Of a DNA stretch of 64,000 nt, positions 12,606-37,119 are shown in pieces (position 1 is the first letter of the stretch; the number at the start of each line of letters is the position of its first letter). A model generated the notes under the pieces. That model ran no database searches and was not told where the DNA came from. It saw only the letters and a list, made by a program, of their open reading frames with translations. Source of the DNA: a virus. The stretch lies in the IMG/VR virus record IMGVR_UViG_3300023112_000008, positions 62,001 to 126,000 of that record. One strand, 5' to 3'. The translations under genes and the position numbers were made by a program.

Positions 12606-13867
12606 GGCGTTGTGTATTCTAGCGCACCAATGATGCTCTTGATGGGATTAGAATTACCAGAACCGCCTGTCCGTCGAACTCGGGCCCCAATTTCGACACC
12701 CAGCCCAATTGCCACGGATAGATTTCGTCGTTCGTTGTTTCGGTCAGTCGGCGAGAGCACGATTGATCCCAGCACGAGAGGTCCGGTCCCCTGGCGACCT
12801 GTAGGGTCCTCCATAATCTCTAATGTGTAAGTATTCGTCGGATGGGCGAGGTTTACCGTAATCGAGCAGCCGATTAGCGTTGATGCAGCCATCGGCGTAA
12901 ACCCGACATCGGACGACGCGGTCGGACCCCAAACGCTGAGGTATTGGAAGGTAGTGGAAGCCGGAATGACCCCACGATAACCCAGAGTAACGGTGCTTCC
13001 GCCGCCTCCGCCGCCCCCGCCAGTGCTCTGATTCTCGGTAAAAGTGAGACCGGTAACTCCGACTGTGATCGGATCGTTAGTCGTTAGCTGCCAGAGGGTG
13101 TCCCCGTGCGCGGTTCCCTCACTGACCGAGACCATCTTGGCGCCAACAACCTCTGGGTCAGCATCAGCATCAACGGCTCGGACCCAAGCTCCTGCATCAG
13201 AAACGTAGATACCATTCTCGCTGGCAGTGGTCTGGTTCTTAACCAGCACCCGATAGGCACTAGTCAGAACACCGTCGATGACTTGCTCACCTGAGAGGGT
13301 GATGTTGCCGGTTGTGGCTACCCGAGCAGGATCCCAGTGAGCATTGCTGCCACCAGTGGCGCTCTTGATCTCAGCGAAGGACAGGCCGGTAGCGCCAACT
13401 GTGATCGGATTGTTGGTAGTTAGGATCCAGAGCGAATCGCTGTATGCGGTGCCCTCACTGACCGAGACCAGCTTTGCTGCGAGGATCTCTGCGTCAGTGT
13501 CGGCATCTGTAGAGCGGACCCAGGCTCCTGCGTCGGACACATAAATGCCGTTGTCAGCTGGAACCGCTTGACCATTAACCAATACGCGGTCCGCACTCGT
13601 GAGAACGCCATCAATAACCTGCTCACCTGAGAGGACGATGTTCCCGACTGAGGTGACTCGGACAGGATCCCAGTGCGAGTTAATGCTGCCGCTACCGCCC
13701 CCACCGACAGGAATCCAGACACCAGCATCACATTGATAGAGAAGGTTGGTGTCTTTGACGACGACCACAGACCCGTCGACGCACGATACGGGAAGGTCCC
13801 CGAACGTGGGTACTGGGTAGAGCCACGTGCTCTTTCTATGTAGTCCGCCGAGGCCGAAGGTGCCCAT
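12602..13867 (-). CDS. Fibre protein with duplicated 104-residue domain
   Basis: In the 421-residue protein residues 64-167 and 176-279 are clear copies, each with LSGEQVIDGVLTSA.RVLV, NGIYVSDAGAWVR, VSVSEGTA and ITVG.TGL.F. This unit is common in phage fibre proteins. A glycine run (283-290) leads to a different C-terminal beta domain with GIGVEIGARVRRTGG-like features. The N-terminus is short and proline-rich. The duplication suggests growth of the fibre shaft by domain copying. It starts at ATG 13867 and overlaps the next gene by four bases. Confidence 0.85.
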   Translation of the reverse strand: MGTFGLGGLHRKSTWLYPVPTFGDLPVSCVDGSVVVVKDTNLLYQCDAGVWIPVGGGGSGSINSHWDPVRVTSVGNIVLSGEQVIDGVLTSADRVLVNGQAVPADNGIYVSDAGAWVRSTDADTDAEILAAKLVSVSEGTAYSDSLWILTTNNPITVGATGLSFAEIKSATGGSNAHWDPARVATTGNITLSGEQVIDGVLTSAYRVLVKNQTTASENGIYVSDAGAWVRAVDADADPEVVGAKMVSVSEGTAHGDTLWQLTTNDPITVGVTGLTFTENQSTGGGGGGGGSTVTLGYRGVIPASTTFQYLSVWGPTASSDVGFTPMAASTLIGCSITVNLAHPTNTYTLEIMEDPTGRQGTGPLVLGSIVLSPTDRNNERRNLSVAIGLGVEIGARVRRTGGSGNSNPIKSIIGALEYTTP

Positions 13868-13939
13868 AATCTATCCCTGGAACCCCCAGTCTAACTCAGC
13901 TGATGCTCCTCTGACGTGTCTTGTGCCTACGTGGACTCC

Positions 13940-16051
13940 TTAGAGAGCGGCGGGATCAACATAATGAATAGTGACGGAAACGATTCCACTTGCTGGGGCG
14001 TCTCCGGACACAATGATTGGTGCTTTACTCTTCTGAACCATGCGACTTTGAGCCCAGTGGTCCATGCCATAGATCAACGCGCCACCAGCGAGATCGGTGC
14101 TCGGCCCTGAGAACCTGTTCGGGTCTGCAGTGTCTCCGACCATCAGGAAGCGAACCCCGCCAACGTCGGTCACGAGCTTGACCATCACGGCCTCGACTCG
14201 AACACCGGCCGGGATCTCGAAACTAGTGCTGTTGCCCTTGCTGAGATCGAGCTCTTCTGTGTGACTCTTGAATACGAGTCCACCTACTGCAAGATCGCAC
14301 GAAAGGTGAACCCCGCTCTTCTCGAAAACGACTTTGTCATCACAGAAACTGGCGCCGCCAGCAACGCCAAGCGCCTTGGCCTTGACTTCACCGGCATCCA
14401 GTTTCGACACACCAAGCAGCTCCCAGCTCTTGCCCTCAAAGGAGAGTCCGCAGTTGGGCCCACCCATCGAGAACGTGGCAGAGCCCCCCGCTCCCTGCAG
14501 GCGCAGCGTGTTGCTGACCTCGATCTTCGGAGACTTAAGCAACTGGAGGTTGTTGGTCACCAGGACCGGTGCATCGATAGCGAAGTCGACAGGGTGAGAA
14601 ATGCTGCCCGACCTGTAACCCGTATCGGCTACGGAGACGAACTTCTTAACTGTCAGCGAGCTCCACTTCTTCAGAGCCCCGCCAACCCCGACTAGATCCC
14701 CATCCGTAGAGGCAAAGCCTCCAGCCACCTCAAACGGTGTGCTGGTGTCGGACGATACGCGGACCGCACCTGAGAAGGTGTGCGACCTAGCCTTGTAGGA
14801 GGTAGCGCCATTCGAGAAGGTCATGCTCTCATCGGCGTGACCGGAGATCCCATCGATCGATATCTGGCCGAGCACGATTAGGTCGCCCTGGACTTTGGCG
14901 CCACCAAAGATGGTTGTGCCGTCATCGTTGACCCGCAGACGGGCGCTATCCCCGTCCCTCAGAACGAATTCGTCGCCGAATACAGCGCCCCATGAGCCTC
15001 CGGTAATCTCTCCGCTTGTCAGCTTGAGACGAGAGGTCCCGTCTCCGACTAGGATGTCACCGCGAACATCAAGACGTCCTTCAGGGGACTCAGTTCCAAG
15101 TCCAAGCTGGCCGGTTGGGGAGACGATAAGAGAGTTTCCGGGGGCCGATCCGAGAATCTTTAGTGGAGACTGCTTCGAGTTAGAAGCGATCTGGAACACC
15201 GCTCCGCCGCTGATGTCGAGATCAACAAGTGCGGCCGACTTCCACCGAGATAGGGGCACGCCTAGCGTGAGACTCCTGGACGGGTTCGGGTTCAGGCTGG
15301 ACCGCACGGTCCCACCAACAGAGAGGTGGTTTTTCACATCAAGTGAGCCAGACAGATTCAGGCCACTCGAAGTGAGCTGCGCCTTGATCTGTTTGCCAAC
15401 CATGAAAATGGTGCCTTTGTCCGCACCGAGAACCAGGTCGTGCCCCTTGGCGCCGTAGAGTCCCTCTGACGCGGTGATTTCGTCGTCAAAGGCGGCTGGT
15501 CCCTTGAACCCACCGGCGAATTGTGCGGCGCCTGACGACTTCAGTGAGCCGTCCCCGGATACCACGAACAAGTCCGAGCCCTTGCCGCCTACAACGCGGA
15601 GGACGGTTTGGGCGCCGTTACCGGCGTTGACCCACAGGAGGCCTTCTTTATTTCCGGCGTCTAGGCCGACCCGTAGGACGGTGTCACCAGACATGATGCG
15701 CAGTTGGTCGGCCTTATTTTTGCCCGAGAGGGCAACGCCCTTGGGGACCTTTACCGACGCGCCATCTCCAACGATGTCTTGGAGCGTTGTCTTGTGAGGG
15801 TTCCCCTCGGAGTCGACATGGTCCGCAAGTTCTTCTGGGAGCTTGCCGCCAACCTTCTTCAGAGTTCCGATGACTGACCACATGCGGGTGGTCTTGTCCA
15901 GGCCAAAGACCTCTTCCGACTCCCGCACGATGATGCGTGTTCCAGGTTCTGTATCGAGCGCAGATGGGAGATCCGCTACCGTGTTGACGATCTTCTGGAA
16001 GCGCGGCTGCCGCTTTACTCCTCCCCCGTGTGATCCGCCTTTACTGAGCAT
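13940..16051 (-). CDS. Large fibre protein, 703 aa, glycine/serine rich
   Basis: The N-terminus is glycine- and histidine-rich (KGGSHGGGVKRQPRFQKI), followed by a small domain (TVADLPSALDTEPGTRIIV). The long central part has many short strands, repeating phrases such as KSSGAAQFAGGFKGPAAFDDEI and LDVRGDILVGDGTSRLKL, as in fibres that precede an intramolecular chaperone. However, the C-terminal 100 residues (VEAVMVKLVTDVGGVRFL ... VTIHYVDPAAL) do not show the serine-lysine pair of S74 peptidases. The role is inferred as a fibre. The 72-base gap upstream of its downstream neighbour holds no clear signal. Confidence 0.8.
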   Translation of the reverse strand: MLSKGGSHGGGVKRQPRFQKIVNTVADLPSALDTEPGTRIIVRESEEVFGLDKTTRMWSVIGTLKKVGGKLPEELADHVDSEGNPHKTTLQDIVGDGASVKVPKGVALSGKNKADQLRIMSGDTVLRVGLDAGNKEGLLWVNAGNGAQTVLRVVGGKGSDLFVVSGDGSLKSSGAAQFAGGFKGPAAFDDEITASEGLYGAKGHDLVLGADKGTIFMVGKQIKAQLTSSGLNLSGSLDVKNHLSVGGTVRSSLNPNPSRSLTLGVPLSRWKSAALVDLDISGGAVFQIASNSKQSPLKILGSAPGNSLIVSPTGQLGLGTESPEGRLDVRGDILVGDGTSRLKLTSGEITGGSWGAVFGDEFVLRDGDSARLRVNDDGTTIFGGAKVQGDLIVLGQISIDGISGHADESMTFSNGATSYKARSHTFSGAVRVSSDTSTPFEVAGGFASTDGDLVGVGGALKKWSSLTVKKFVSVADTGYRSGSISHPVDFAIDAPVLVTNNLQLLKSPKIEVSNTLRLQGAGGSATFSMGGPNCGLSFEGKSWELLGVSKLDAGEVKAKALGVAGGASFCDDKVVFEKSGVHLSCDLAVGGLVFKSHTEELDLSKGNSTSFEIPAGVRVEAVMVKLVTDVGGVRFLMVGDTADPNRFSGPSTDLAGGALIYGMDHWAQSRMVQKSKAPIIVSGDAPASGIVSVTIHYVDPAAL

Positions 16052-16096: not shown

Positions 16097-16429
16097 CTAC
16101 CAAGCCCAGACCCGATACTCTTCGTCTCCAGTAGCGCCCCGCAAGTAGACGATTTTCCGCCTGAAGGTGAAGAAGTTCATCGATTCCTGGGCGAGGAGAT
16201 CGCCTTCGACGGTGACACCATCGAATGAGAACTGGATCTCTCTGGCGGAGTGATCATTCGCCACGATCAGTCCCTGACTGATGAAGTTGGTTTTTCCGTC
16301 ACCCTTGTCGATGAACACGAGTTTGCAGTCGGCGAAGTCGGTAGTCAGGTCTGGCCCGATGCCGCCACTGGCGAGGTCCCTCACGTAAAAGCGGTAGCTA
16401 CGAACGCTCGAATCGAATGGTCCAGACAT
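16097..16429 (-). CDS. Tandem-duplicated virion protein, copy B
   Basis: The 110-residue protein is about four-fifths identical, by eye alignment, to its neighbour at 16442-16771. Both share FDSSVRSYRFYVRD near the start, DFADCKLV, DKGDGKTNF, QFSFDG and the terminal YRVWAW. The fold looks like a beta-sandwich. Proteins in this position are often decoration or tube-associated, but I do not recognise the family. Most differences between the copies are conservative, suggesting both are under selection. Confidence 0.8.
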   Translation of the reverse strand: MSGPFDSSVRSYRFYVRDLASGGIGPDLTTDFADCKLVFIDKGDGKTNFISQGLIVANDHSAREIQFSFDGVTVEGDLLAQESMNFFTFRRKIVYLRGATGDEEYRVWAW

Positions 16430-16441
16430 TGATTACTCTCC

Positions 16442-16771
16442 TTACCAGGCCCAGACCCGGTATTCTTCCCCACCAGACCCGCCGCGCAGGTAGACGACTT
16501 TGCGTCTGAAGGTGAAGAAGTTCATGGATTCCCCTGCCACAAGGTCGCCCTCGATGGTGATGCCGTCAAACGAGAATTGAATCTCAGTTACGGTGTCGTC
16601 ATTGGCGATGATCATGCCCTGACTGACGAAGTTGGTCTTTCCGTCGCCTTTGTCAACGATCACGAGCTTGCAGTCCGCAAAATCAGTGGTCAACGTCGGA
16701 CCGGTTCCGCCGCTGACGTTGTCTCGTACGTAGAAGCGGTAACTACGAACGCTCGAATCAAAAGGTCCCAT
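16442..16771 (-). CDS. Tandem-duplicated virion protein, copy A
   Basis: The 109-residue paralogue of the preceding entry starts at ATG 16771. It differs mainly at residues about 17-25, 57-61 and 78-100. The single conserved cysteine (in DFADCKLV) and the aromatic-rich ends are retained. Twelve bases separate it from copy B, and ten from the upstream baseplate-like gene. It could form hetero-oligomers with copy B. Confidence 0.8.
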   Translation of the reverse strand: MGPFDSSVRSYRFYVRDNVSGGTGPTLTTDFADCKLVIVDKGDGKTNFVSQGMIIANDDTVTEIQFSFDGITIEGDLVAGESMNFFTFRRKVVYLRGGSGGEEYRVWAW

Positions 16772-27329: not shown

Positions 27330-29918
27330 TTAGGTGGAAAGCCTCAGTGAAACTGACTCGTAGAACACCTGCTCGTCGTGAAGAGCACGCAGCTCAGTGA
27401 TGATGATGTCGAGACGACCGGGGTGGAGATTGACGTGCTCACCGAGCCACCCACGGAACAGGGCCAACATGTCGTCTTCAACGAGACGCTGATCTTGATT
27501 AGGATCATGCTCGCGCGTATGAGCACCCTGTTGTCTAGAAAACCCTTTTAGGGCTGGGTGCAAAACGTGCCATTCTTCATTATGATTTATCGCGTTTTCT
27601 GCCCGCTTAGCGACACTGCCTGTTTGTTTCCCCAACTTATGGTCGCGCCCAACAATGGAATGCCAAAATGGGTAGTATTCGTGGGACGTGAGCTCTTCAC
27701 CTTTCAAACCCTTAAGGGAACTGGTGATGCGATCCCACTGAGGAATCTGCTTTCTAACAGCGTCCGCCATACTCTTTGAAGTCTTAACCGCCCCCCTCTC
27801 TATTTTACTCCTACCAGGCTTTTTAGAACCGGCCTGCCAATCAGCCATTAGCTTGACCGGATCGAGCTGATTGTTGTTGATCGCAATTCCGGGTGGTGGT
27901 TGAACCTCCAACTTATCAACTGAAATTGGTTGGAGCGCCGGGTGCCCAAGCGTCCGAAGCATGTCACCCCTAGCGGCTACACGCTGGGCATGAGCCTGAG
28001 GCTCTTCACCTATGTGTCGCTTAATTTCTGCGTGGGTATGCCACGCCTGTGTCGCCCGGTCCCGAAGACCATTGAGGATACCTGTCCACGGCCCACTGTG
28101 GGTGTAGTTAGGGATCACAGTCCTGAAATAATCAGCTCCAGAACCTCTCTTGAACATCCCCGCCTCTAACTGACCAGTCTTTGGGTTCTCTACCGCCGGA
28201 GCTCCGAGGGTGCTGCGCAACCAGTCCCCCATGTTGACGGTGTAGGGCACAACCGCCCCGGTATTTGGATCTTTGTAGGATCGTTCAAAAACCCCAAGCC
28301 GCCCTTTGTTTCCACCTAGTCGTGGATCAGTAAGCAGTCTCTCCGCTCTCGCTAGAGCCCTCCCCTGGTAGGCCTTGATAGCATCTCTCGGCGACATATC
28401 TCCGTGTTGGGCCGCATCGAACTCCGAACCCATTGCGAGTCTACCGAGTGCATCGCCAGCAGCTCGCTGTTTCACAGGGTCGAGAGGTGCGGCCTGCACA
28501 TCGCGTGCTCTTTCCAGGGCACCTTCTGCATGTTTATCAATCGTCTGGTCGCGGGCAACCTGTGCCCGCTCCTTGGGCGTCATAGCTTTAAGTTCTTCAG
28601 GAGTGTAACTAGGACGGGCTGCGCCAGTCCCCTGCCGCCTATCGTTAATTGCGGACCGCAGACCCGCTTCGCCCTGCTGTCTTCCTCGTGCCCCTAAGCC
28701 TTCGACCCCCGCTTGACCTTCTATATATCTTCCCATGTTCGTCAATTGCTTAACAAAGGTTGAAGCGTGGTCTTGGTGCGAGTCGTGGTCAACTTCGGGG
28801 TTTATTGACCCTGCCTCCCACGCCGCCTGCGCTTCCGCCCTCTTTGCACGGTGTGCATCCATTGCATCAGAAAAACCTGCCGGATCACCTCTAAAATCCT
28901 TTTTAACGGGCTCTCGCCCTAGCCCGAGGATAGCGTCATCGTGGTGCCTGAACTTCGTGGCGATGGCATTCGCCATAGCGGATCGACCGCCAATCGCATT
29001 ACCCTTACCGGCGGACGGAGTCGCCCATGTGGCAAGAATCTCTGAAGCCCTAGCATCACTCTGAGGATTACTCTGCCCATCATTTAGTGCAGCAGAGATG
29101 TGTGGGTGAAGACGGGTCACCATGTCATTTATATGAGGCCTTACATTGTCCTCGACGTACTTCGCCGCAGCGCGTTTAGCCTCCGTACGCTGGGCGCGGG
29201 TCATGCCTGCTCCATGACCTTTAGCGTGTACCTCCTTAGCCCCAGCAAGCCCTTTATTGATGGCATGTCCGCTTTGGCGGGCGTCATAGCCCTCTTTGTA
29301 GCCCGCAGCGTATTCTCCACCCTCGGCCGGGTCCTCGTAAGCCTTTCCACGCTTGGATGCCACCCAACCGGCCTGATAGCCCTTACGGTGCTCAGGGGTT
29401 CCACTTGCTCCAGATTTTGATGAAGCGGGCTTAGGCTCCGGCTCCGGCTTTGATTGCGGCGCCTGACCTCCAGATCCCCGCATGAACCTGGCAGCAGCGT
29501 CATCATCAGGAAGGGAGCCAGCATCGTCTGGATTATCATCGCTACCATCATCGATGAACAATGGCTCTGGTTCTGGTTCTGACTTTGGCTCTGACTTTGG
29601 CTCTGGCTCCTCAGAATCTTTGTGAATTTTGCGATAACCTGGATCGTTTTTCATTCTCCAATCGTGGATAGCATCGTCGTCTTCATCTTCATCTCCAGCA
29701 GCTCTGTCGCGCTCTTCTGCGCCGTCACTCCCATCATCAAAGTCATCGTCGTCGTAGTTATCCCAGTCGGGGCCCTCACTAAGGAGCTTCGCCTTGATAC
29801 CTGGGGATAGGCTCTCCAGAACATCAAGGGTCTTCTGATACATTCGCTCAAGAACGGCGTTGCAAGAGTAGAACCCGTCAATGCTCTCGGCAATCAATTT
29901 GCCTACATCTACTGCCAT
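27330..29918 (-). CDS. Large low-complexity protein, 862 aa, unknown function
   Basis: A helical N-terminus (about 1-45) is followed by an aspartate-rich stretch (50-75), a KSEPEPEP-type repeat (about 100-120) and a long hydrophilic helical body. A motif RKGYQAGW...GYKEGY near residues 180-215 repeats glycine-tyrosine pairs. The C-terminal 350 residues appear more ordered (GPWTGILNGLRDRATQAWHTHAE). It starts at ATG 29918. The last ten bases of the upstream homing endonuclease gene overlap this start, and before the endonuclease arrived the ParB-like gene probably ended at the same place. Size and composition would fit an internal or injected virion protein, but this is not shown. Confidence 0.75.
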   Translation of the reverse strand: MAVDVGKLIAESIDGFYSCNAVLERMYQKTLDVLESLSPGIKAKLLSEGPDWDNYDDDDFDDGSDGAEERDRAAGDEDEDDDAIHDWRMKNDPGYRKIHKDSEEPEPKSEPKSEPEPEPLFIDDGSDDNPDDAGSLPDDDAAARFMRGSGGQAPQSKPEPEPKPASSKSGASGTPEHRKGYQAGWVASKRGKAYEDPAEGGEYAAGYKEGYDARQSGHAINKGLAGAKEVHAKGHGAGMTRAQRTEAKRAAAKYVEDNVRPHINDMVTRLHPHISAALNDGQSNPQSDARASEILATWATPSAGKGNAIGGRSAMANAIATKFRHHDDAILGLGREPVKKDFRGDPAGFSDAMDAHRAKRAEAQAAWEAGSINPEVDHDSHQDHASTFVKQLTNMGRYIEGQAGVEGLGARGRQQGEAGLRSAINDRRQGTGAARPSYTPEELKAMTPKERAQVARDQTIDKHAEGALERARDVQAAPLDPVKQRAAGDALGRLAMGSEFDAAQHGDMSPRDAIKAYQGRALARAERLLTDPRLGGNKGRLGVFERSYKDPNTGAVVPYTVNMGDWLRSTLGAPAVENPKTGQLEAGMFKRGSGADYFRTVIPNYTHSGPWTGILNGLRDRATQAWHTHAEIKRHIGEEPQAHAQRVAARGDMLRTLGHPALQPISVDKLEVQPPPGIAINNNQLDPVKLMADWQAGSKKPGRSKIERGAVKTSKSMADAVRKQIPQWDRITSSLKGLKGEELTSHEYYPFWHSIVGRDHKLGKQTGSVAKRAENAINHNEEWHVLHPALKGFSRQQGAHTREHDPNQDQRLVEDDMLALFRGWLGEHVNLHPGRLDIIITELRALHDEQVFYESVSLRLST

Positions 29919-29950
29919 GCGGGTAGCTCCTTCTTGATCGCTGAGATCAA
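29909..29950 (-). repeat. Duplicated C-terminal coding segment, copy in the endonuclease gene
   Basis: The 42 bases encode LISAIKKELPAWQ and stop. They align without gaps to 30772-30813 with 13 base differences, nearly all at synonymous positions. This copy probably is the original 3' end of the ParB-like gene because it still overlaps the start of the downstream 862-residue gene. Confidence 0.85.
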
Positions 29951-30769
29951 GCCCGTTCTGTGACTACGATCCCCCCACGCTTGGCGTGCGTCGATCAGCC
30001 GTCTGTAGGTCTCATATTTTCGCGGCAGGTGGGGGACCTGATCGCGAATCTCAAACATCCATTCTAGGATGGTAACCGAATCGTGATGCGGCCAGATCAC
30101 CTGATTGGTTACTACTGATCCCCTGGTGTTGAGTTCAGCGCTGAGGCGAGACTTTACTGATTCCAGAAACTTAGGACTAGCTCCTGCGATAGATAGACCG
30201 ACCATCGGCTTACGCCCAGGTCGTGATCCGTTGCTGTGGTAAACAGATCCATCACCGTCGAATAGTCCGAGCATGAAGTGCTGCATCAGACTTTCAGGAA
30301 CTAGAGGAAGGTCAACCATCTTTAGGGACTTAGCCGGAACGACTCCTACCTGGGTGAGCCAGGTGGCCATTCGTGGGCTGCACACATTTAACGTGTAAAC
30401 GTCGTCTTTGTAGGGACCACGGACACTACCCCCGACCAGGGGAAGAACGGATCGCAAGTGGTCACGCCCGCTCTCATGGCTCTGACTAACGGAGAATCCG
30501 GTGCCGTTTTTCCTCACGTTCCCATCAGCGGTCAAAAACCCCACAACGTAGGACAACGACGCCGACCACGACTCGACGAATGCTTCGTTAGGAACGAGAT
30601 TTGAGCCCCCGGTATGTGGGACTCGGATCTTCCAATAACGATTGTTCCGGAGACGTACGGAGGTCCTAGACCGACCAAGTTGGTCGGCCACAGCTCCAAG
30701 ATCACGGCTCTCCTCAAGGAGGAGACGGCCCAGAGAATTATCGTCTGACGTCCAACGCTTACCGGGCAT
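29909..30769 (-). CDS. Free-standing LAGLIDADG homing endonuclease
   Basis: The 286-residue protein has an N-terminal helix-turn-helix-like part (DDNSLGRLLLEESRDLGAV) and two LAGLIDADG helices (YVVGFLTADG at 74-83 and FMLGLFDGDG at 165-174) with the acidic residues that bind metal. It would cut a long specific DNA site and spread by homing. Its C-terminal 13 residues repeat the C-terminus of the preceding ParB-like protein (LISAIKKELPxWQ), and its last ten bases overlap the next gene. It starts at ATG 30769, two bases after the ParB-like stop. Confidence 0.9.
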   Translation of the reverse strand: MPGKRWTSDDNSLGRLLLEESRDLGAVADQLGRSRTSVRLRNNRYWKIRVPHTGGSNLVPNEAFVESWSASLSYVVGFLTADGNVRKNGTGFSVSQSHESGRDHLRSVLPLVGGSVRGPYKDDVYTLNVCSPRMATWLTQVGVVPAKSLKMVDLPLVPESLMQHFMLGLFDGDGSVYHSNGSRPGRKPMVGLSIAGASPKFLESVKSRLSAELNTRGSVVTNQVIWPHHDSVTILEWMFEIRDQVPHLPRKYETYRRLIDARQAWGDRSHRTGLISAIKKELPAWQ

Positions 30770-30771
30770 CG

Positions 30772-30813
30772 CTATTGCCAGTTAGGCAACTCCTTCTTTA
30801 TGGCAGAAATAAG
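30772..30813 (-). repeat. Duplicated C-terminal coding segment, copy in the ParB-like gene
   Basis: The segment encodes LISAIKKELPNWQ and stop. Nine of thirteen codons differ synonymously from the copy at 29909-29950 and one differs in amino acid (N for A). It looks like a recoded replacement end brought in by the endonuclease element. Confidence 0.85.
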
Positions 30814-31677
30814 GAACTCATTGATCTGATCTGAATTTGCCTGGCAAGTCTCGACCAACTCGCCAATTAGTTTATTGAGATGCGCCGTCTCGTTGACGAC
30901 CAAGTGGGTGTGACCGGCAACGCCAAAGTAGAGATATCCCTGGGTGCACGTATCTGCGCTCTGTTGCAGGACGTCCATCTGGAACGCCTTCAGTGATGTC
31001 AGCAGGGCCCTTTGATCGGCGAAGGCCTTCTTCTTACCCTTGCCCGGCTGGGTCGTGACTTCGTTACCTTCGTCATCCTTTGGGGGACGGCGCTTATCTG
31101 GAGAGGCTCCAGTGTTGGCCTGCTCTGATGGTGTCTTGGAGTTCGAGGATCCGCCGCCGACCTTCGCCTTCTCCACTTCGACCATCGTGTCAATCACTTC
31201 TTGGCTGTAACGCTTCTTGAGATCCTCCATTCGCTCTTCACGAACGAGCATGCGCCGACGCGCAGCCTCAGATGAGATCCCCCACTTGCCAGTGATCTTC
31301 TTCTGAAGCTCTGCGTAACGCGTCCGGTTGATCTTGCCCCGGATGTTGTTCCGCTTAACGCTCCACTCCATGAGCGCTTCTTCGTCCGCATCAGAGAGGT
31401 GCTCTTTGACGACGCACGGCATGTGCGTCATCTCAAGCGCCAGGCACACCTTCTTACGGTGCTCACCACCGAGGAGACGGAACTTTCCTTTGTCCTCCCC
31501 CTCAGTGATAGGAACAACCTGTCCAGGCTCATCGAACCCGCCGTCCCTGACTGCTTCAAGTAGGGCCGCAAATTCAGGCTCGTCCATCTCGTTCACGTTC
31601 CAGTCGCACAAGACTAGAGCATCAACGGGAATTAGAACGGCACCCTCCCAGGTTGCGAATGACGCGTTTTTAGACAC
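30772..31677 (-). CDS. ParB-like protein with GxHR nuclease-type domain
   Basis: Residues about 15-90 match the ParB N-terminal domain: a strand-helix (NVNEMDEPEFAALLEAV), then PGQVVPI, and the GGEHR motif (70-74) that in ParB relatives binds CTP or forms a nuclease site. A helix-turn-helix-like part follows (GISSEAARRRMLVREERM, about 133-150), then a polar linker and a helical C-terminus. Such proteins act in DNA segregation, transcription control or as nucleases in phages. The start is GTG 31677 after a GGAG. The 3' end has been replaced or copied by the adjacent homing endonuclease element. Confidence 0.85.
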   Translation of the reverse strand: MSKNASFATWEGAVLIPVDALVLCDWNVNEMDEPEFAALLEAVRDGGFDEPGQVVPITEGEDKGKFRLLGGEHRKKVCLALEMTHMPCVVKEHLSDADEEALMEWSVKRNNIRGKINRTRYAELQKKITGKWGISSEAARRRMLVREERMEDLKKRYSQEVIDTMVEVEKAKVGGGSSNSKTPSEQANTGASPDKRRPPKDDEGNEVTTQPGKGKKKAFADQRALLTSLKAFQMDVLQQSADTCTQGYLYFGVAGHTHLVVNETAHLNKLIGELVETCQANSDQINEFLISAIKKELPNWQ

Positions 31678-34509: not shown

Positions 34510-37119
34510 TTGATCACCTACCAAAACGGACGATTTCGCAGTGTTCGACCGGTTGCAGAGGCAATGGCCCTTCTGCAGACTGAAATTGATGAGCTCACTC
34601 CTGATGAGAAAGGAGCTCTCGATCTCCTAATTAAGGACATCGCTGGGAAGCAGGCAAAAGAGATTGCCGATGCTGCCGAGCGCCTTGAGTGGGATTCTGA
34701 TACTGGACCGGCCATCCCAATCCGTCAGTGGGTCAACGACGAATACTACCTCGGCGAGACGGCCCGCACTCTGTGGCCCAGGCTCAAGGAGGACATGATT
34801 GAGTATTTTGAGGGCGACTATGCGGAGTGCATCCTCACTGGGTCGACACGCTGGGGTAAGGATTATTTCAGCACTACAGCCCTAATCCGGATCATCTACG
34901 AGCTTTATTGCCTGAAGCGGCCCACTGACACACTGGGACTTGGTCGTGGTGAGATCATTCACATCGTCCCTATCTCGCATACTAAGGAAGCTGCTCAACG
35001 AGTCGTTTTCCAGGGAATCGTGCGTAAGCTCGCCCTGACCCCATTCTGGAAGGGCCGGTTCGAGGTCACTAAAGAGGAGATTCGCTTCCCAGGTAAGGAC
35101 ATCATCATCATTGGTGGTGGATCTAATGAGGGCGCTGCACTTGGTCTTAATGTGTGGGCCGCACTTATCGATGAGGGCAACTTCATGGGTAAGCAGAAGA
35201 AGGGTCACGTAGCCGCCGGTGGCGGTAAGGACGACAAGTCCGAGTCCATCTACGATTCACTGCGACGTCGTATTCGAGGCACCTACTCGGCCACAGGCCT
35301 TCGTGGTCGTCTGATCATGATTTCATCGAAGAAGTCGATATATGACTTCACCGAGCGAAGACTCCGCGAGGCGATGCGGGAAAACGATACGAGCGTTTTT
35401 GTCCGAGATTACGCCACCTGGGACGTCCGACCAAACGCGTTTATGGGCCAGAAATGGTGGCGTGCAGCCGTTTCTCAGAAGATTGGCCGCGTTCGCGTCC
35501 TTGATGATGGGGAAGAGGTAGAAGACCACGAGATTTGGTTCCGCTTCCCTGATGAGTATCTTCAGGACTTTCTGAACGATCCCGCAGGTGCGGCCCGAGA
35601 CATTGCTGGTATTGCGCTGGAATCGTTCCGTCCGTTCTTCTCGAATCGAGAAGCCATTGACGCAATGATGAAGCCAGAGCGGGCGCACCCATTCCATATC
35701 TACGAGTGGGTCACCAGTAGGGAGATCAAGCCGATCTGGGACAACATGATGATCCGGAACGTGCACGGAGATCCGGTCCCGAGATGTTGCCCAAACGCAC
35801 ACCGACACGTCCACATGGACCTTTCAAAGAACAAGGACGCTACAGGGTTTTGTGTGGGCCACGTTGCCGGAGAGGTCGAAGTCTCGCGCCTGGACCCAGA
35901 GACTCACGAGAAGAGGAAAGAGGACGCCCCTCTAATCCACATTGACTTGTGCCTCCGTATCCTGGCCCCTCATGCGGGAGAGATTGAACATCAACTTGTC
36001 AGATCGTTGATCTACATGCTCCGAGAGGGTGGTCTCCCGATCAAGTCGGTATCTGCGGACCGTTGGATGGGGCTTCCAAACCTCCAGCTCATCGCTAAGC
36101 ACGGATTCAAGACACAGGAGATATCGACCCAGAGAACCCTTGATCCTTACCTGTCTGCACAGGGAGCTCTCTATGAGGGGCGGATTGAGAGCCCTGTTTA
36201 CACCTTCTTGGCGAAGGAGCTCCGAGAGCTTGAGCTGAATTCCCAGGGAACCAAAGTCGATCACCCGCGCACGGGCTGCTTCGCGGGTGACACGAAGGTT
36301 CGCCTCTTGGACGGGAGGGCGATCACGTTTGAGCAGCTAGTGGCTGAGTATGGAGAAGGTCAGAGATTCCACACCTATACGATGCGAGAAGGTGCCGTGT
36401 CTGTCGGAATCGGTTACGCACCACGTCTGACGGCTAAGAACGCGCCTGTAGTGGCGGTCACGTTGGACAACGGCGAGACCGTCAGGTGTACGCCTGACCA
36501 CAGGTTCATGCTCCGAGATGGGAGTTATCGCGAGGCCGGGGAGCTGCAACCCGGCGACTCGTTGATGCCGCTCTACACCAAGTTGTCCACAAAGTCGGCC
36601 CACAAGATGGTCGGTTACGAGCTCTACTTGTGCCCCGGCGATGGTAAGTGGCACTTCACCCATCGGATGGTCGGAAAGTGGAAGTACCCGGGCTACACAG
36701 GCAACCAGCACGGTAATGGACTGATTCACCACGACCGGGGGAAGCTAAACAACGCGCCCGACGCGTTCTGCATCGCGCCCGGTAATCACAAGGTCGTGAG
36801 CGTTGAGCCTAGTGGGACCGCCGATGTCTACGACATTTCAGTCGAAGAGACATCGAACTTCGCTCTTGATGCAGGAATCTTTGTCCACAACTCAAAGGAT
36901 CTGGCCGATGCGTTTGCGGCCGTCTGCTACTTCCTAGCCACGAACTGGAGATCCATTGGAGGGGGCGGCATTTCAATGGGCGCCTCTGTTATCGAGACTC
37001 CAGGCCTGCCAGGCGAGGCGGTTCCTACGTCAGACGGTAATTTCAGGTGGCCAGACGAGCCGCCCCTACCCACTGAGGGCGGGGAAGATTGGACCGGTCT
37101 ACCAACGTGGATCATCTGA
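34510..37119 (+). CDS. terL: Terminase large subunit with intein
   Basis: The product is the ATPase/nuclease that packages DNA into proheads. The 869-residue precursor holds a 205-residue intein (590-794), leaving 664 residues. It shows a Walker A-like GSTRWGKD (111-118, with D instead of S/T after the lysine), Walker B AALIDE (217-222), nuclease motif D437 (HMDLSKNKDATG), and the third nuclease motif SKDLADAFA (795-803) directly after the intein. The listed start is TTG 34510, three bases after the small-subunit stop; ATG 34564 (MALLQTE) is an alternative. Expression is linked to the upstream small subunit. Confidence 0.92.
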   Translation: MITYQNGRFRSVRPVAEAMALLQTEIDELTPDEKGALDLLIKDIAGKQAKEIADAAERLEWDSDTGPAIPIRQWVNDEYYLGETARTLWPRLKEDMIEYFEGDYAECILTGSTRWGKDYFSTTALIRIIYELYCLKRPTDTLGLGRGEIIHIVPISHTKEAAQRVVFQGIVRKLALTPFWKGRFEVTKEEIRFPGKDIIIIGGGSNEGAALGLNVWAALIDEGNFMGKQKKGHVAAGGGKDDKSESIYDSLRRRIRGTYSATGLRGRLIMISSKKSIYDFTERRLREAMRENDTSVFVRDYATWDVRPNAFMGQKWWRAAVSQKIGRVRVLDDGEEVEDHEIWFRFPDEYLQDFLNDPAGAARDIAGIALESFRPFFSNREAIDAMMKPERAHPFHIYEWVTSREIKPIWDNMMIRNVHGDPVPRCCPNAHRHVHMDLSKNKDATGFCVGHVAGEVEVSRLDPETHEKRKEDAPLIHIDLCLRILAPHAGEIEHQLVRSLIYMLREGGLPIKSVSADRWMGLPNLQLIAKHGFKTQEISTQRTLDPYLSAQGALYEGRIESPVYTFLAKELRELELNSQGTKVDHPRTGCFAGDTKVRLLDGRAITFEQLVAEYGEGQRFHTYTMREGAVSVGIGYAPRLTAKNAPVVAVTLDNGETVRCTPDHRFMLRDGSYREAGELQPGDSLMPLYTKLSTKSAHKMVGYELYLCPGDGKWHFTHRMVGKWKYPGYTGNQHGNGLIHHDRGKLNNAPDAFCIAPGNHKVVSVEPSGTADVYDISVEETSNFALDAGIFVHNSKDLADAFAAVCYFLATNWRSIGGGGISMGASVIETPGLPGEAVPTSDGNFRWPDEPPLPTEGGEDWTGLPTWII
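36277..36891 (+). mobile_element. Mini-intein with HNH remnant in the terminase
   Basis: The 205-residue element starts CFAGDTKVRLLDG and has block B TPDH. It ends NFALDAGIFVHN before an extein serine. It is too short for a LAGLIDADG domain, but GLIHHDRGKLNNAPDAF (about residues 150-166 of the intein) resembles an HNH endonuclease. It splits the nuclease domain just before SKD, a site often occupied by inteins in large terminases. Confidence 0.88.

Follow-up and report, generated by a model that had tools for sequence, protein, structure and literature searches.

To our knowledge, the usual view is that endonuclease genes can coexist with conserved genes only when housed in introns or inteins or when located between genes. 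Several described systems come close to the arrangement analyzed here. In fungal mitochondria, mobile ORFs form gene hybrids with atp6, atp9, cox2, and nad3 of Glomus sp. and with atp6 of Allomyces macrogynus (PMC3630166). The endonuclease ORF directly follows a host gene that has received a diverged replacement 3' end, the native end lies downstream, and the inserted and native ends of Glomus atp6 share 63.5% identity in DNA and 91% in protein (PMC3630166). The free-standing endonucleases of T-even phages, such as SegF, SegG, and MobE, are encoded next to core genes, almost directly after the upstream stop codon, with break repair that co-converts the flanks (PMC2988022, where co-conversion and marker exclusion are treated). 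Their genes are located between genes or split a gene, as do Aeh1 mobE in nrdA and T4 mobA in gene 60, and the enzymes cut at sites hundreds to thousands of bases away (PMC2988022). Lastly, phage LAGLIDADG endonucleases borne by introns or inteins disrupt conserved genes.

The window, which is the whole stretch of 64,000 nucleotides analyzed here, is part of a virus record of 134,749 bases. A ParB-like gene on its minus strand (30772..31677; PHROG 26387, ParB-like partition nuclease, E value of 3e-15) is whole, with its own 3' end and stop codon. Two bases past this stop codon starts a free-standing LAGLIDADG endonuclease gene (29909..30769, minus strand; TAGCGATG), followed by a downstream gene on the same strand (27330..29918; MAVDVGKLIAESID...). 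The ParB 3' end is found twice on this strand. Copy P (30772..30813) lies within the ParB-like gene, whose protein ends in NEF-LISAIKKELPNWQ, and is probably the replacement copy. Copy H (29909..29950) is fused in frame to the endonuclease, which ends in RTG-LISAIKKELPAWQ. As an earlier note on this DNA had stated, copy H overlaps the start of the downstream gene: the TAG stop codon of the endonuclease overlaps the ATG of gene 29918..27330 (ATGGCAGTAG), and an AAGGAG motif spelled by K-E codons is positioned 8 bases upstream of this start codon. In copy P, the AAGGAG is kept, while the ATG/GTG of the old downstream start is gone (AACTGG). The region is also present in a second assembly of the same phage (L001), with 100% identity over 10.9 kb, and an assembly error is therefore an unlikely source of the duplicated ends.

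Direct comparison of copies P and H bore out the earlier counts of 12 of 13 shared residues and of 13 differing positions in the 42-base segments. The further count of nine synonymous codon changes stood only in part: nine codons do differ, but only eight of the changes (L, I, S, A, I, L, P, and Q) are synonymous, the ninth replacing N with A. The codons for K, K, E, and W and the stop codon are the same in both copies. The sole residue difference (N/A, and L in the relative L002) falls in the codon whose last base is the first base of the overlapped start. A chance or convergent likeness of two C-terminal peptides has the shortness of the segment in its favor and nothing else, and we regard its probability as negligible. 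The 12 matching residues are found at exactly aligned stops, and comparable internal peptides in this genome reach at most 7 of 10. Furthermore, the ParB/endonuclease pair is an outlier among 11,794 same-strand pairs of ORF ends within 4 kb in two phages, scoring 60 against a background of 37 to 38 and below. Chance is also already refuted by empty-site relatives, which possess the same peptide at the same overlap. The only pair with a higher score consists of tandem ORFs of ~110 amino acids at ~16.1 to 16.5 kb of the window (~16129-16506, minus strand), whose near-identical ends (GDEEYRVWAW and GGEEYRVWAW) probably stem from a simple tandem duplication.

The LAGLIDADG gene was matched by Pfam PF14528 (33.4 bits; cut-off, 22.5), by the PHROG 4645 endonuclease family over residues 58 to 260 of 286 (E value, 2.6e-23), and weakly by the PDB entry 2dch (E value, 0.008). 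Its single chain contains two LAGLIDADG motifs, VGFLTADG and LGLFDGDG, both of which are conserved in a related free-standing endonuclease on the contig of L002 (L037:6400-7197, minus strand). This relative ends at about residue 260 and lacks the last ~24 residues. Beyond the family match, the window's protein continues with an 11-residue linker (residues 263 to 273, QAWGDRSHRTG; 29951..29983, minus strand) and then the 13-residue copy. Because the family match stops at residue 260 of 286 and the related endonuclease ends before the tail, the C-terminal tail is, on these alignments, an add-on foreign to the nuclease proper. The gene at 29909-30769 is an inserted homing-type endonuclease gene, with predicted activity and a predicted cleavage site. 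Related LAGLIDADG genes at six annotated phage loci, in some cases within intron-split genes, were not flanked by any copy of a gene end.

The position of the endonuclease gene and its in-frame fusion are intron-like, which raises the question of whether its tail is the second exon of a gene interrupted by an intron or intein. A real group I intron does occur in the tail tube gene of relatives, and inteins are abundant in these phages. However, no Rfam intron was detected at the ParB locus even with a permissive cut-off, although a search of identical design recovers the tail tube introns at 75 to 88 bits. An intein is opposed by the ParB gene's own stop codon ahead of the endonuclease, and no splicing domain is reported in the endonuclease or in ParB. 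With no catalytic RNA core, no splicing domain, and no continuous frame, both readings were rejected as very improbable. The locus thus shares with intron- and intein-borne phage endonucleases the LAGLIDADG family and the disruption of a conserved gene, but differs from them in having no splicing element.

Relatives of the ParB locus were sought among viral contigs with searches for ParB, the endonuclease, ParB and terminase profiles, two 3'-end patterns, the tail tube, and the capsid. At the ParB locus, these yielded only L001 and L002, together with the distant L063. A search of genome contigs gave no ParB-locus relative, and among phage records the best ParB identity was 34%, which is too distant. 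Eight contigs retrieved with the relaxed 3'-end pattern were discarded as unrelated, with a chance AIKKELPTW. L002 carries a ParB gene that is 77% identical, has no endonuclease, and ends in NEFLISAIKKELPLWL. The TAG of this gene shares bases with the GTG start codon that follows (MAVDIGAVIAESI, compared with MAVDVGKLIAESI in the window), and the gene downstream has a homologous start (MAVDIGAVIAESIN); the stop/start overlap is like that in the window's phage (TGGCTGTAG / GTGGCTGTAG), and AAGGAG is again found 8 bases upstream. In L063, ParB is 37% identical, the endonuclease is likewise absent, and stop and start also overlap. Because these two endonuclease-free relatives keep the overlap, their gene layout shows an ancestral arrangement in which the stop codon of ParB and the start of the following gene overlap, with the endonuclease as an insertion and copy H in the native position. 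Since AAGGAG precedes the start by 8 bases in both L002 and copy H, the copy H segment is also the ribosome-binding site of the downstream gene.

The earlier note had proposed that the endonuclease copy is the original 3' end. The layout of L002 and L063 supports this by position, but at the DNA level the ParB comparison is a tie. L002 differs at 15 bases from copy P and at 13 from copy H, and so is no closer to the ParB copy; against a background divergence of 28%, these values amount to a tie. In addition, a changepoint test of the window's ParB against L002 was not significant (P = 0.36). Because DNA polarity at this locus is a tie, a foreign origin of copy P would rest on analogy with the other loci described below. 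Codon usage and GC3 of the P and H tails, which are too short for this purpose, did not tell their origins apart.

We consider it likely that break repair placed the LAGLIDADG gene within the final 13 codons of the ParB gene, importing a diverged 3' end and displacing the native end downstream. The recipient would have been an endonuclease-free ancestor, broken near the end of the gene and repaired from a donor. On the left side of the break, the endonuclease gene would have been copied in together with the gene end as spelled in the donor, including a stop codon; on the right side, the break would have rejoined the recipient's own gene end, which would now flank the endonuclease gene downstream and, at two loci, form the tail of the endonuclease itself. 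The recipient's last 42 ParB bases would in this way have been pushed downstream to serve as an in-frame endonuclease tail while still providing the following gene with its ribosome-binding site and overlapping start, and ParB would stay functional without splicing. The synonymous differences between P and H would follow if the imported 3' end derives from a diverged lineage of phages that already spelled the peptide otherwise. The duplicated length would correspond to how far from the stop codon the break occurred. This order of events is the one we infer.

A scan for repeated gene ends revealed three further host-gene 3' ends repeated past nuclease genes in the same genome. The tail tube gene (PF06841) ends in IVVELVVN, as does the GIY-YIG gene (PF22945) that follows it, and 2 of 27 bases differ. 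The PolA-type DNA polymerase gene ends in GRTWDELH and is followed by a putative HNH gene; an exact repeat of its last 26 bases lies 1 kb downstream, and 1 of 27 bases differs. The major capsid gene (PF07068) ends in MVNITNLV and precedes an HNH_3 gene (PF13392) and a nuclease-like gene that matched no Pfam family, and its end is repeated 2.1 kb downstream with 2 of 27 bases different. Only five exact direct repeats of at least 18 bases within 3.5 kb exist genome-wide, and two of them are such gene ends. The polymerase case is the weaker one, because a relative has the endonuclease at this locus but no far copy was found there. Six relatives with 68 to 69% identical capsid genes (G005, G006, G008, G009, G012, and G013), at least some of which are near-duplicates of one another, showed no endonuclease-flanked end copies. 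A weaker pair of copies at L041 9625/8105 was dropped, as it is antisense to tail-fibre repeats.

In an alternative scenario, a 42-base direct repeat arose from the phage's own sequence upon insertion, with silent drift of both copies afterwards. The near-identical repeats of 26 to 28 bases found in the polymerase, capsid, and tail tube genes resemble more recent products of such an event. Duplication in place at insertion would also fit the near-identity in three of the four cases. At the ParB locus, however, saturation of silent sites while 12 of 13 residues persist would require that the endonuclease tail had long been under purifying selection. Apart from providing the ribosome-binding site and the start overlap, this tail has no obvious function, and the wider endonuclease family does not have it. 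We therefore judge an origin of copy P from the same phage to be unlikely.

Polarity was also examined at the capsid and tail tube loci, using G001, the contig of L002. The G001 capsid gene is uninterrupted. Because the terminator past its stop codon matches the sequence past the far copy in the window's phage, the capsid far copy is, by this sequence match, the native one. In the G001 tail tube gene, divergence from the window's phage jumps from 13% to 44% in the last 15 codons (permutation P < 0.0005), while the relative's endonuclease-borne tail-tube tail is only 5 to 7 of 27 bases off the tails of the window's phage. At the L045 tail tube locus, where the relatives also carry the endonuclease, the corresponding values are 5 to 7 of 27 for the downstream copy versus 14 of 27 for the inserted copy. 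The divergent tract starts ~7 codons ahead of the duplicated part, and residues are changed as well (9 of 15 kept). The relative's tail-tube 3' end therefore looks more like a co-imported foreign end than like purely silent recoding, as far as these alignments indicate.

The 5' end of the tail tube gene offers a mirror case. In two relatives, a short MARAVDTDL (or MARAIDTSL) copy that carries the conserved leader GGAGACGAC is followed by an Endonuclease-I-like gene and, beyond it, by the tail tube gene with a differently spelled start. In L045, the two copies of the start differ at 8 of 27 bases, all of them silent. The window's phage lacks the tail tube intron and has its Endonuclease-I-like gene fused to the first five codons. 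The group I introns of the relatives (RF00028, 75 and 88 bits; L045:3689-3965 and L048:3688-3964) follow tail tube codon 11, and each directly follows a free-standing Endonuclease-I-like gene lying outside the intron, making these nuclease-intron pairs candidates for collaborative homing. Three other features of these phages were recorded. The large terminase gene of the window (34510-37119) carries an intein (PF14890); the G001 terminase gene has none at that position, and its Walker A motif is instead the site of a LAGLIDADG-bearing insert (residue ~112; G001:40811-42093). G001 (203,521 bases) is unusually intein-rich, with at least 14 LAGLIDADG_3 matches, several in very long frames (884 to 2464 amino acids). 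Finally, two adjacent kinase-like genes (L043:11816-12826 and 12869-14011; G000:131816-134011) share an identical 86-base 5' end, consisting of a leader and MLAQNFNLIEGSLYRSPLRLME, and then diverge.

Known free-standing phage endonucleases spare their own genome through sequence differences at the target. Copy P might accordingly have been selected for synonymous difference, as protection against cutting by the resident endonuclease and against recombining-out. Eight of the 11 degenerate codons for the same residue differ between P and H, including all outside the K-K-E ribosome-binding segment, and the tail tube gene likewise shows strong recoding, both at its 3' end in the relative and at its duplicated start. 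However, the 10 synonymous differences at shared residues are at the level of independent codon choice (mean of 7.4 for random codons; P = 0.15), so directed recoding is not needed, and P/H divergence is not significantly above gene-wide divergence (Fisher P = 0.13). The tail-tube tract, moreover, alters residues and extends past the duplicated part, as imported sequence would. Since the copies at three other loci differ at only 1 to 2 of 27 bases, hiding the site is not a general requirement, and the earlier proposal that the ParB copy was recoded to conceal the cleavage site is unsupported as it was stated. Adaptive recoding is rather doubtful on this evidence, although somewhat less so than duplication in place. 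P and H appear to be spelled as differently as would be expected of two distinct phage lineages, and import from a diverged phage would explain the pattern more simply than obligatory recoding. It is possible that the P/H difference also protects the carrier from self-cleavage.

The parallel drawn earlier with fungal mitochondrial atp6 proved apt, in view of the Glomus and Allomyces cases. As in those hybrids, the endonuclease ORF directly follows a host gene with a diverged and probably replaced 3' end, the native end lies downstream, and the copies are far apart in DNA (69% identity in the phage) while close in protein (92%). Unlike the fungal hybrids, the phage keeps the native end in frame as an endonuclease tail, reused as ribosome-binding site and overlap with the next start; it employs several nuclease families at four gene ends in one genome, in addition to a 5' version; and its duplicated segments are much shorter (27 to 42 bases). 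With the T-even free-standing endonucleases, it shares the position next to a core gene with hardly any gap to the upstream stop codon, likely translational coupling, and the proposed break repair with co-conversion of flanks; it differs from them in the position of the gene and in the predicted distance of the cut sites. Duplicated host-gene ends are not described in the phage reviews and surveys PMC2988022, PMC10448857, and PMC12724721. A search of largely open-access literature found no phage precedent, and as far as we found, the arrangement was previously described only in fungal mitochondria.

If true, gene-end replacement with several nuclease families in one genome would represent another route into conserved genes. 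We raise as a tentative possibility that it amounts to a third, splicing-free lifestyle of endonucleases in essential phage genes, in which cassettes replacing the last or first codons are used by several nuclease families and synonymous divergence blocks both self-cleavage and recombinational loss. Such replacement would leave a signature for genome scans, namely a short repeat of a gene's end across a nuclease gene. It would also explain abrupt jumps in divergence at phage gene ends, and the predicted cleavage site of each enzyme would be the junction of the two copies, which is directly testable.
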